DNA of 31,929 nt from a virus: positions 1 to 31,929 of the IMG/VR virus record IMGVR_UViG_3300009432_000028; one strand, 5' to 3'. Each line of letters opens with the position of its first letter. Position 1 is the stretch's first letter. The notes under the pieces were generated by a model. It was not told where the DNA came from. It was given only the letters and a program-made list of their open reading frames with translations, and did no database searches. Of this stretch, positions 18,455 to 21,208 are shown one piece after another. The position numbers were made by a program, and so were the translations under genes.

Positions 18455-18502
18455 ATGCGCCTGATTAAAATTATCAACATCAACGTCAAAGCTGTCTTAT
18501 AA
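18455..18502 (+). CDS. 15-codon leader peptide coupled to lysis cassette
   Basis: ATG at 18455, reading MRLIKIININVKAVL, with stop TAA at 18500-18502 that overlaps the next ATG as TAATG. GAGGA lies about 7 nt before its start, whereas the next gene has no ribosome site of its own. This suggests that ribosomes load here and reinitiate downstream. The peptide is short, basic and hydrophobic. It could also be a real toxic or membrane-active peptide; size makes it uncertain. Confidence 0.45.
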   Translation: MRLIKIININVKAVL

Positions 18503-18735
18503 TGGAGATGGCTTCTCTTTGGAGTGTCGGATTGACCGCTGCGCTTGGCTTTATTGCGTGGTGGGCGAAGGGTCAGCAGGATGAGTTGGCGCGTCTGCGG
18601 ACGCTTTTAAATAGGACGAGGGAAGAGATGGCCAAGGAATATGTGACCAAATCTGACAGCAACCAAGTGCTGACGCAAATCATGAGTAAATTTGACAGGC
18701 TGGAAGAAAAGATCGACCGCCTAATGGAAAAATGA
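18502..18735 (+). CDS. Small membrane-anchored coiled-coil protein
   Basis: A 77-aa protein with one hydrophobic segment at about 6-21 (WSVGLTAALGFIAWWA) followed by a charged helix from 24 to the end with heptad character (IMSKFDRLEEKIDRLMEK). The topology, a single N-terminal membrane anchor and a coil, fits small inner-membrane proteins of lysis cassettes, such as i-spanin-like or holin-accessory proteins. It is translated after a 15-codon leader (TAATG) and overlaps the next gene by ATGA. No family is recognised. Confidence 0.7.
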   Translation: MEMASLWSVGLTAALGFIAWWAKGQQDELARLRTLLNRTREEMAKEYVTKSDSNQVLTQIMSKFDRLEEKIDRLMEK

Positions 18736-19205
18736 TTGACCCAATTACAGCGGTCGGATTGGCGACCTCGGCTTTTAATATTCTGAAACAGGGTATTAGC
18801 GCCGGTAAAGATATTCAAGAGATGTCTGGCACATTGGCAAAATGGGGGTCAGCGTTTTCTGACTTTCAGTATGCTGAAGACAAAGCCAAGAACCCGCCCT
18901 TCTATAAGATGATGACCGACAACTCTGCAAACGCCATTGAGATATTTGCGCAAAAGAAGAAAATGCAAGAGATGCGAAAGCAGATCAAAGACCATATATC
19001 ATGGACGTATGGCCCGTCAGCGTGGGAAGAAGTTTTGTCTATTGAGGCAGAGATGAGGCGCATCCGCAAGGAAGAGGCGTATAAAAAGCAAGAGTTTATA
19101 GACAACGCTATTAATTTTGCTGTTGGTGCTGCTGTCTTCATTGCCGCTGCTGGCGGTGCTGCAACTGCGCTGTATTATTTTGCTCGTTATCAAGGGAAGT
19201 TGTGA
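18732..19205 (+). CDS. Predicted membrane protein of lysis region
   Basis: A 157-aa protein. Residues 1-20 are moderately hydrophobic (MIDPITAVGLATSAFNIL), the middle (about 65-120) is a charged helix, and residues about 127-150 form a clear membrane segment (FAVGAAVFIAAAGGAATALYY). I have the impression of similar proteins near endolysins of marine phages but know no function. It starts within the previous stop (ATGA) and its own stop overlaps the next ATG (TGATG). A role in holin regulation or envelope disruption is possible from context alone. Confidence 0.7.
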   Translation: MIDPITAVGLATSAFNILKQGISAGKDIQEMSGTLAKWGSAFSDFQYAEDKAKNPPFYKMMTDNSANAIEIFAQKKKMQEMRKQIKDHISWTYGPSAWEEVLSIEAEMRRIRKEEAYKKQEFIDNAINFAVGAAVFIAAAGGAATALYYFARYQGKL

Positions 19206-19369
19206 TGTGGATCTTGGTTTGGATGCAGCTATCCTCTGTCGTTAGCCACTTTGAAATTGGTCAGTACACATCTGAGATTGAATGTCTTGACCATAAGAAA
19301 AAAGCATCTGTACTTGTAACCAAGAACAACGAATACCTTCATTGTTTTAGAATTAAGATTGAGGGCTAA
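19205..19369 (+). CDS. 54-aa small protein, possible membrane or secreted
   Basis: The frame runs from an ATG at 19205, overlapping the upstream stop as TGATG, to TAA at 19367-19369. The N-terminus is hydrophobic (MWILVWMQLSSVV), then a soluble part with two Cys (27 and 47). This could be a short signal or anchor followed by a periplasmic domain, as in o-spanin-like or regulator peptides, but there is no lipobox. Tight coupling to both neighbours supports a real gene. Confidence 0.6.
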   Translation: MWILVWMQLSSVVSHFEIGQYTSEIECLDHKKKASVLVTKNNEYLHCFRIKIEG

Positions 19370-19370
19370 T

Positions 19371-19496
19371 ATGAAAGATGCAGAAATTATTAGTCTGTTT
19401 GATAAGAACCTAGAAGTTGTCATTGAAGGGCTGGCTGCCAAGTCGGGTCGCAATTTCGCAGAGGTTTTAAAACTCTTGCAATCGAAAAGGAATTGA
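19371..19496 (+). CDS. 41-aa small soluble protein
   Basis: ATG at 19371 with GAGGG upstream, stop TGA at 19494-19496. It reads MKDAEIISLFDKNLEVVIEG onward, ending in basic residues (LLQSKRN). It is predicted helical with no membrane segment. It lies one base after the previous stop and one base before the next ATG. Codon use looks normal and the ribosome site is good. Function unknown. Confidence 0.6.
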   Translation: MKDAEIISLFDKNLEVVIEGLAAKSGRNFAEVLKLLQSKRN

Positions 19497-19497
19497 T

Positions 19498-19809
19498 ATG
19501 ACACAGTTCGAGAAAGCTGACCTAAACAAAGACGGAAAGATCGACGAGGTTGAGTGGCAAAAGCTGGCCCTTGAGGATCGTTGGCGAGAGATGAATGACA
19601 ACGACGCTAAGCGCGACACACAGCGCCGCCTGACCACAGCTTGTGCTGCTGGTATGTTGTTGTACCCTTTTGCTATCGTAGCGGCCTCTGCACTTGGCTT
19701 AGATAGTGCTGCTAAATTAATCGCTGATATTGCTACTGTGTATGTTGTTGCTGCGTCAGGTGTTGTCGCTGCTTACTTTGGATTTAATGCGATGGAGTCT
19801 AAGAAATGA
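19498..19809 (+). CDS. EF-hand, two-helix membrane protein (holin candidate)
   Basis: A 103-aa protein. Residues 8-19 form a canonical EF-hand calcium loop (DLNKDGKIDEVE: Asp8, Asn10, Asp12, Gly13, Ile15, Glu19). After a charged linker, two membrane helices follow at about 48-67 (AAGMLLYPFAIVAASAL) and 75-97 (IADIATVYVVAASGVVAAYF). Size and two-helix layout match class II-type holins, and it lies in the lysis cassette upstream of the endolysin. AAGGA precedes the ATG. I recall similar EF-hand membrane proteins in marine phages, mostly unnamed. Calcium binding and pore formation are inferences. Confidence 0.7.
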   Translation: MTQFEKADLNKDGKIDEVEWQKLALEDRWREMNDNDAKRDTQRRLTTACAAGMLLYPFAIVAASALGLDSAAKLIADIATVYVVAASGVVAAYFGFNAMESKK

Positions 19810-20150
19810 TTGGTGCAATAGTAACTAGCGTTGTCGGTCTAGCAACTAGCGTGATCGACGGCAAGACTGCTGTTAAGAAAGCGGAAGCTGAGACTAAGAT
19901 GAAGATCGCCACTGGTGAAATCTCTTGGGAACAGTCTGCAATCGAAGCAAGCAAGGATAGTTGGAAGGATGAGGCGTGGACAGTTTGCTTTATTGGAATT
20001 GTCGCTGGCAGTTTCTTTCCACCATTACAACCGTACATGGCTGAAGGCTTTTCCAACTTGGAAAAAGCACCAAGCTGGTTTCAATGGGCTATGTATGCAA
20101 GCATCGCCGCAAGTTTTGGTATCAGGACTATGAAAGGGTTTAAGAAATGA
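19806..20150 (+). CDS. Putative holin-like membrane protein
   Basis: A 114-aa protein. An N-terminal weakly hydrophobic segment (MIGAIVTSVVGLATSVI), a charged middle, and hydrophobic segments at about 58-75 (WTVCFIGIVAGSFFPPL) and 90-107 (WFQWAMYASIAASFGI) are seen. The layout is reminiscent of three-helix holins of gene-transfer agents and related phages, but the match is by eye. It overlaps both neighbours (ATGA at each end) and directly precedes the endolysin. It may be the holin, with the EF-hand protein as antiholin or partner, or the reverse. Confidence 0.65.
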   Translation: MIGAIVTSVVGLATSVIDGKTAVKKAEAETKMKIATGEISWEQSAIEASKDSWKDEAWTVCFIGIVAGSFFPPLQPYMAEGFSNLEKAPSWFQWAMYASIAASFGIRTMKGFKK

Positions 20151-20764
20151 GCAACGCAATGAAACGGCTTCAGGAGAAAGTCGGCGTCGGTGCTGACGGA
20201 GCCTTCGGCCCGAACACCGCGCGTGCAATCTGTAAGCACTATGGTCTGTCGCCCAAACGTGGCGCTCACATCTTGGGTCAGTCTCACCACGAAAGCGCAG
20301 GGTTCAAGCGTGTCAGCGAGGGTCTGTATTATTCAACGCCAGAACGCATCCAAGCTGTGTGGCCGTCACGCTTCAAAACAGTGGCTGACGCAGAGCCATA
20401 CGCAAAGAACCCCAAGGGTCTCGCAGATAAGGTATACGGCGGTCGTATGGGCAATGATGGCGAGGGATACAAGTGGCGTGGCCGTGGCTTTCTACAACTC
20501 ACCGGCAAAGACAACTATTCACGATTTGCCAACGACATGGACCTTAACATCGTCTTGGATAATCCAGACTTGGCGGAGGAAGAATATGCGTTTGACACTG
20601 CGCTGTGGTTCTTCAAATCCAATAAGCTGTTTGACATCGCCGATCAGGGTGTGACCGATGCGGTCATCCGCAAAGTCACCAAGCGCGTAAACGGCGGCAC
20701 GCACGGATTGTCGGATCGTGAAAAGCAGACCCACATGATTTACAAGTGGCTTGCCGACACTTAG
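20147..20764 (+). CDS. Endolysin, GH19 chitinase-like with peptidoglycan-binding start
   Basis: A 205-aa protein. Residues 5-30 look like a short peptidoglycan-binding repeat (LQEKVGVGADGAFGPNTARA). The GH19-type catalytic domain follows: QSHHESAGF with candidate catalytic Glu49, SEGLYYSTPERI with Glu58, GRGFLQLTGKDNYSRF, and RVNGGTHGL. These match phage GH19 endolysins that cleave the glycan backbone. No signal peptide is seen, so release would need a holin, which the upstream genes can supply. It is coupled to the previous gene by ATGA. Confidence 0.9.
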   Translation: MSNAMKRLQEKVGVGADGAFGPNTARAICKHYGLSPKRGAHILGQSHHESAGFKRVSEGLYYSTPERIQAVWPSRFKTVADAEPYAKNPKGLADKVYGGRMGNDGEGYKWRGRGFLQLTGKDNYSRFANDMDLNIVLDNPDLAEEEYAFDTALWFFKSNKLFDIADQGVTDAVIRKVTKRVNGGTHGLSDREKQTHMIYKWLADT

Positions 20765-20824
20765 GCGCGGCGCTATTATGACGTGTGGCTGGGTTTTATT
20801 TTCACTCAATCAAGGTTGAGCGCT

Positions 20825-21208
20825 GTGCAGCAAGATTTAACAACCCAGCCATACGACCATATCAGCATTGGCCGTGCTGGCGAGTTCATGGCGGCTTACA
20901 AGCTGCAAATGAATGGTTTGGAGGTCGCACACATAAACGGTACGTGTGACCTTCACGCAACGCTTCCATCAAAGCGTGTTTTGCGGGTCGAGGTTAAAAC
21001 GTCTGCAACTATCTCACAATATGGCAGCTACAGGTTCCACCGTGGCGGTTCTGACGCTGATATTTTTGTGCTGTGCGCTCTCAAGCAGGGTTTGCTGCGA
21101 GTAATGCGTTCAGACGAAATGGGCGGCAAAATGACAATTACCCTTCGGCCCGCTGACTTTACACAACAGGCCGAAGACGAGGATATAGCGGGTCTGTTTT
21201 TGCTTTAG
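20825..21208 (+). CDS. PD-(D/E)XK-like nuclease protein
   Basis: A 127-aa protein read from GTG at 20825, which has AAGG upstream; a GTG at 20783 or TTG at 20816 could also serve. The sequence has ISIGRAGEFMAAYKLQMNG, then INGTCDLHA and RVLRVEVKTSA. The Glu...Asp...Glu-Val-Lys spacing is the core of restriction-like or Holliday-type PD-(D/E)XK domains. It follows the endolysin but probably acts on DNA rather than in lysis. Its stop overlaps the opposite-strand gene by 4 nt. Substrate unknown. Confidence 0.65.
   Translation: MQQDLTTQPYDHISIGRAGEFMAAYKLQMNGLEVAHINGTCDLHATLPSKRVLRVEVKTSATISQYGSYRFHRGGSDADIFVLCALKQGLLRVMRSDEMGGKMTITLRPADFTQQAEDEDIAGLFLL

Follow-up and report, generated by a model that had tools for sequence, protein, structure and literature searches.

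A small EF-hand protein with two predicted membrane helices as a candidate lysis membrane protein of mostly aquatic phages

According to our analysis, the gene at 19498..19809 (+) in the viral record IMGVR_UViG_3300009432_000028 (IMG/VR), the whole 31,929-nucleotide stretch of which is referred to here as the window, encodes a 103-aa protein in which a predicted EF-hand calcium loop is joined to two putative membrane helices. The protein belongs to a large, previously undescribed family of small EF-hand hairpins carried by mostly aquatic phages; a survey of the literature that excluded most subscription journals returned no account of an EF-hand holin or of an EF-hand/two-transmembrane (two-TM) family, and the TP-84 and Acinetobacter papers that contain both words, EF-hand and holin, proved unrelated. 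We think that the protein acts as a lysis membrane protein, either by forming holin-like pores itself or as a partner of the holin candidate encoded by the adjoining phrog_2524 gene (probability of about 0.6), and the gene context gives moderate support to such a role. Binding of calcium by the predicted loop is probable, while gating of lysis by calcium is speculative and, in our judgment, rather unlikely.

The assignment of the window protein (MTQFEKADLNKDGKIDEVEWQKLALEDRWREMNDNDAKRDTQRRLTTACAAGMLLYPFAIVAASALGLDSAAKLIADIATVYVVAASGVVAAYFGFNAMESKK, the translation of ORF 19498-19809 on the plus strand) to an EF-hand group relies on its match to Pfam EF-hand_5, at 26.4 bits versus a cut-off of 25.9, and on its relatives in IMG/VR. 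The loop, DLNKDGKIDEVE, spans residues 8 to 19 (19519..19554, +) and reads D8-L-N10-K-D12-G13-K-I15-D16-E-V-E19; all six coordinating positions (1, 3, 5, 7 through the backbone, 9, and 12) are present, as are Gly at position 6 and Ile at position 8, which, with the EF-hand_5 score above cut-off, bears out the canonical loop proposed at these residues in a preliminary description of this DNA. The PROSITE pattern PS00018 is seldom met by chance: among all 294 stop-to-stop ORFs of 50 codons or more in the six frames of the window (30,622 residues) it occurs once, at residues 8 to 19 of this protein, and shuffling the 103-aa protein 200,000 times produced it in 105 cases. No second EF-hand per chain was found in the window protein or in the relatives read; a second EF-hand in the same chain is usual but not required.

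With the window protein as query, a scan of IMG/VR identified 358 of its candidates as relatives, and the loop is present in all 80 of the relatives that were kept. A second scan used only the membrane half (residue ~35 onward) to avoid circularity, and 154 of the 157 relatives reached in this way and not truncated before the loop retain the strict loop, the exceptions being a Gln at position 12 in L188 and the loss of the loop in L310 and L325. In 36 second-scan loci the loop at first seemed to be missing, but this was mostly an artefact of the strict pattern, position 9 being a Glu or Gln that PROSITE permits, and only 2 of these loci fail the PROSITE pattern. Among 81 representatives, obtained by clustering at 80% identity the proteins that match the PROSITE loop (a filter that excluded only a few), Asp at position 1 and Glu at position 12 are constant, with variable ligands at position 3 (Asn/Asp), position 5 (Asp/Asn/Ser), and position 9 (Ser/Thr/Asp/Glu). 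In a 70-member alignment, strict invariance is limited to D8, G13, E19, and D36, followed by the near-invariant D40, Q42, R43, and V90, and residues 10 and 12 alternate between N/D and D/N, respectively. The conservation of Asp8, Asp12, and Glu19 in homologs, which had been singled out beforehand as a check, is therefore found for D8 and E19 without exception and for residue 12 as either Asp or Asn. EF-hand_5 matches 62 of the 70 members at an E value of ≤0.1, and the family profile retrieves calmodulin and other EF-hand proteins from the PDB via the loop region.

At the nucleotide level, the position 1 Asp is encoded by GAT in 177 cases and by GAC in 113, and the position 12 Glu by GAA in 158 and by GAG in 132. 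In the closest group, loop positions 2, 4, 7, 10, and 11 vary most, whereas the ligands are fixed or nearly so. Fixed ligands, drifting codons, and varying non-ligand positions are the pattern expected under selection on metal ligands, and, as far as sequence comparison can establish it, the EF-hand of this two-TM protein is genuine rather than a chance motif, with its ligands held under strong purifying selection. Members of the family are found in marine and freshwater phages, and distant forms in Sinorhizobium phages; the link to seawater phages made in the preliminary description is too narrow for a large family that is not peculiar to this phage and extends to freshwater and, more distantly, soil phages. 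One locus (L062:207-506) encodes an apparent mosaic, with an EF-hand and linker of the type seen in L080 fused to a membrane half of the window type, which suggests recombination between the two halves. Another relative (L161, PAJM01000045.1) lies in a bin labeled Euryarchaeota, probably because a viral contig was assigned to the wrong host during binning.

Hydropathy indicates two hydrophobic segments in the window protein, at about residues 45 to 65 and 73 to 97, and AlphaFold, run on the 70-sequence alignment (mean pLDDT, 82.7; pTM, 0.51), predicts helices at residues 3 to 7, 17 to 65 (19546..19692, +), and 69 to 102 (19702..19803, +), the last of which contains the second membrane segment (TM2), so that the two membrane helices earlier described as joined to the loop are recovered by both approaches. 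Since the helix from residue 17 to residue 65 is unbroken and predicted with good confidence, the exit helix of the EF-hand is predicted to pass straight into the first membrane segment (TM1). The entering helix comprises only the five residues 3 to 7, in a block with a pLDDT of about 60. Between the loop and the D-x-Q-R motif at the membrane edge the spacing is 29, 31, 32, or 36 residues; the step from 29 to 36 amounts to seven residues, about two helical turns, and would fit a rigid connection. Lys and Arg are more abundant on the outer flanks than in the central turn in 70 of 70 members, which suggests under the positive-inside rule an N-in/C-in topology with the loop in the cytosol. Fold searches added little: in a second look at the PDB, the helical hairpins matched unrelated coiled coils with Z scores below 7, which is uninformative, and the single clear match in BFVD was an unnamed 84-aa protein.

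The gene lies in a lysis cassette, as previously described. Its stop overlaps, in an ATGA (19806-19809), the start of a gene for a 114-aa membrane protein (19806..20150, +; phrog_2524, E = 1.8e-27), the stop of which in turn overlaps, in a second ATGA (20147-20150), the start of a gene for a 205-aa GH19-type endolysin (20147..20764, +; phrog_181, E = 1.1e-50; PF00182, E = 1.9e-5, just below cut-off). The cassette is headed by a gene for a 77-aa TM and coiled-coil protein (18502..18735, +; phrog_462, E = 3.3e-10; neighbor cluster 33), followed by one for a 157-aa protein with a C-terminal TM (18732..19205, +), which matches phrog_32327, a PHROGs family of unknown function. Although phrog_2524 itself is unnamed in PHROGs, its family profile aligns with a cluster of PF11351-type holins that occupy the equivalent place (hhalign probability, 79%; pairwise E = 1.6e-5), one member of which matches PF11351 (GTA_holin_3TM) at E = 5.6e-20, and this distant homology points to a holin candidate in the window other than the EF-hand ORF. 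On homology, the phrog_2524 gene is deemed the better holin candidate of the two, and the EF-hand protein is consequently more likely to be one of two membrane proteins of the cassette. The AlphaFold model of the phrog_2524 protein is poor (pLDDT, 62.5). The earlier reading of the EF-hand protein as a holin candidate finds only partial support: it is a small membrane protein of the cassette, but none of the curated holin families of Pfam, PHROGs, or NCBIfam matches it above cut-off, and it has a better candidate as its neighbor.

Similar arrangements recur in many other phages. Being a 103-aa two-TM protein encoded near an endolysin is a holin-class trait, and the endolysin, at +2 in the window, lies at +2 in 111 and at +3 in 42 of 318 loci (153 together), at +1 in 2, and at −1 to −5 in only 4. 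The endolysins beside EF-hand genes are of the GH19, M15, and GH108 types. In 135 of the 318 loci the +1 gene belongs to a holin family (97 phrog_2524, 38 PF11351-type), with a 4-base overlap in 61; Rz-like spanins adjoin the EF-hand gene in other loci. Genes of the phrog_32327 type (neighbor cluster 1) number 145 in the 318 loci and are mostly at −1 to −3. Neither a recognized lysis gene nor a T4-like neighbor was found for 18 of the 81 representative clusters, some of whose contigs are short. Gene order thus indicates an association of the family with lysis that is strong but not universal.

In some individual genomes the EF-hand gene takes the place of phrog_2524. HMO-2011 has the gene order KSQ..WRTKSGKPS gene, phrog_2524, 37-aa ORF, lysozyme, TerS-like gene, and the roseophages CRP-1 and CRP-345 have flanking genes of the HMO-2011 type with the EF-hand gene in the phrog_2524 slot; between these homologous flanks, then, either of two unrelated proteins may occupy the slot. 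CRP-1 and CRP-9, both roseophages, have the endolysin directly behind the EF-hand gene and after it a gene for a lipoprotein-plus-TM, u-spanin-like protein, the last two being swapped in CRP-345. In Limnohabitans phage DC31 it stands two genes ahead of an L-alanyl-D-glutamate peptidase, and in CRP-810 it precedes a PF11351 holin. No relatives of phrog_2524 or PF11351 were detected in the whole genomes of DC31 and CRP-345 or in the lysis regions of CRP-1 and CRP-9. Only where such a neighbor is absent, as in CRP-1, CRP-9, and CRP-345, is the EF-hand protein the lead holin candidate; among the CRP-345 CDSs screened, two hydrophobic segments are otherwise predicted only in the u-spanin-like gp68, in a 56-aa protein, and in a 180-aa protein of the tail region.

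A serious, if tentative, alternative is that the downstream phrog_2524 or PF11351-type protein is the holin and that the EF-hand hairpin forms no hole but sets the timing as an antiholin or regulator, by restraining the holin or by releasing it upon calcium entry. The position of the EF-hand gene immediately upstream of a holin-family gene, often overlapping it in an ATGA, speaks for this, as do CRP-6 and CRP-13, where an unrelated small TM protein (phrog_10198) is encoded directly upstream of phrog_2524 and replaces the upstream partner as if the pair of holin and small TM protein were modular; phrog_2524 and its small TM partner look like a modular two-protein membrane unit. It fits less well with CRP-1, CRP-9, CRP-345, and DC31, which have an endolysin nearby and no relative of the putative holin detected in the whole genome (DC31, CRP-345) or in the lysis region (CRP-1, CRP-9). 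The pairing of phrog_2524 with the phrog_10198 'SLPDPS' protein refers to L338:1224-1822, L339:3289-3842, and L340-L419; a phrog_2524-like motif is near the latter protein in 52 of its 80 loci. A common origin of the EF-hand protein with this partner was tested by sequence comparison and is unsupported.

If the EF-hand protein acts in host lysis, as we favor, it would do so as an inner-membrane hairpin with one cytoplasmic EF-hand. Free calcium is sub-micromolar in the bacterial cytosol and about 10 mM in seawater. An N-in/C-in placement would put the loop in the cytosol, at low free calcium; the site would then stay unoccupied for as long as the membrane holds, and a feed-forward trigger is plausible on that basis. 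In an N-out protein, the calcium site would be permanently loaded. A membrane leak or a drop in proton-motive force would let calcium enter and bind to the loop, the calcium-bound loop might alter the packing of TM1 via the unbroken exit helix, and repacking of TM1 could render triggering faster or more cooperative. Unpaired EF-hands usually bind weakly, and the single hand with its short, low-confidence entering helix counts against the calcium reading. That members are calcium-gated holins or triggers, in which a cytosolic EF-hand would respond to calcium entering as the membrane first fails and push TM1 into a lethal state, is in our estimate unlikely.

It is quite possible, although we would not expect it, that bound calcium (or magnesium) steadies the N-terminal part of the protein or assists hand pairing in oligomers, with no gating. 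EF-hands normally pair and here are single, which makes pairing between subunits plausible, and the loop is constant despite differing hosts and habitats; a structural site in the predicted cytosolic loop, however, would be mostly empty before lysis unless its affinity were high.

T4-like phages that infect SAR11, OM43, and Sinorhizobium have the EF-hand gene between gp51-like and tape-measure genes, as seen in HTVC008M, Melnitz, and Sinorhizobium phages phiM12/phiN3, and it is chiefly for this reason that we do not call the whole family holins. T4-like tail genes are neighbors in 57 of the 318 loci, and the gp51/tape-measure neighborhood is found in 19 of the 81 representative clusters. The Sinorhizobium members keep D1, D3, D5, G6, and E12, but their position 9 is Val or Ala. 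In a tree of the 81 representatives, many forks of which are unresolved given the short sequences, lysis and T4-tail contexts are interspersed, and the starred branches force at least 9 and at least 4 context changes, with constant architecture. That the protein serves virion assembly or infected-cell physiology, acting in T4-like phages with the baseplate hub or the tape-measure protein and lying near lysis genes by chance, would account for this conserved placement, but it is distinctly unlikely given the interspersed contexts with unchanged architecture and the recurrence of lysis contexts in which the endolysins and spanins differ and are unrelated to one another. The EF-hand genes of Melnitz and HTVC008M (L084:3980-4309 and L085:3974-4306) adjoin the tape-measure gene.

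As for known families, sub-threshold matches to Holin-X (PF07332) were found for 10 of the 70 members, with the CRP-1 protein scoring 15.4 bits versus a cut-off of 28.4. In the Pfam search PF11351 did not match the EF-hand protein, and a common origin with the neighboring holin families is unsupported (hhalign, 11.6% for the PF11351-type cluster and 5.7% for phrog_2524). The SLATT two-TM domain (NF033634) has a similar layout of a helix and two TMs and gave sub-threshold matches in 6 of the 70 members, but this identity was dropped, since the window protein scores 16.2 bits versus a cut-off of 41 and no defense-system context was seen around EF-hand genes. Part of the family is already clustered in PHROGs, as 27 of the 70 members match phrog_27150 (best E = 9.8e-10), as does CRP-1 gp56 (E = 9.2e-12), and gp165 of Sinorhizobium phage phiM12 does so end to end (E = 1.9e-96); that entry, however, mentions no EF-hand and no function, and the window protein matches it at only E = 0.27. 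Class II (two-TM) holins are likewise small, with two helices, predicted N-in/C-in, and encoded in the lysis cassette upstream of the endolysin, whereas the EF-hand protein bears an EF-hand and often lies beside another holin candidate; at most, then, the family works like a class II holin, and it falls outside every curated holin family. The calcium-dependent phage endolysin LysGH15 is reported to use an EF-hand-like calcium site as well (PMC4022735), its calcium dependence residing in a soluble CHAP enzyme domain rather than in a membrane hairpin.

If calcium gating were to hold, many aquatic phages would possess a calcium-coupled lysis switch, and the T4-like phages that infect SAR11 and OM43 bacteria would gain their missing holin. 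The usual picture of a holin is that of a timer governed by how much of it has accumulated and by the membrane potential, and an ion-sensing domain conserved across a large family of membrane proteins from lysis cassettes would give this timer a physiological input. Through this family, hundreds of genes annotated as 'hypothetical protein' also acquire a label and a set of residues that can be tested. The Melnitz paper names no holin and proposes that a phage CsgG pore might act like a pinholin (PMC9004378), and the EF-hand protein, carried by both Melnitz and HTVC008M, may be offered as an alternative inner-membrane candidate.

Several neighboring genes deserve mention. Two tiny ORFs take up the space ahead of the EF-hand gene in the window, one at 19202-19369 (55 aa, hydrophobic near its N terminus and containing two cysteines, similar to neighbor cluster 3, which is at −1 in 67 loci) and one at 19371-19496 (41 aa). 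The phrog_32327 protein carries the motif 'MIDP..A.GLATSAFN..KQG', and its relative in CRP-345 is encoded ~22 kb away near tail genes. CRP-207 gp73 (L086:3292-3873) is annotated as a 'putative lysozyme' but reads as a TM and coiled-coil protein, which makes the annotation look doubtful. The gene following the endolysin in the window (20783-21208; phrog_5018, of unknown function) recurs downstream in related loci, where it forms neighbor cluster 31 (15 genes).
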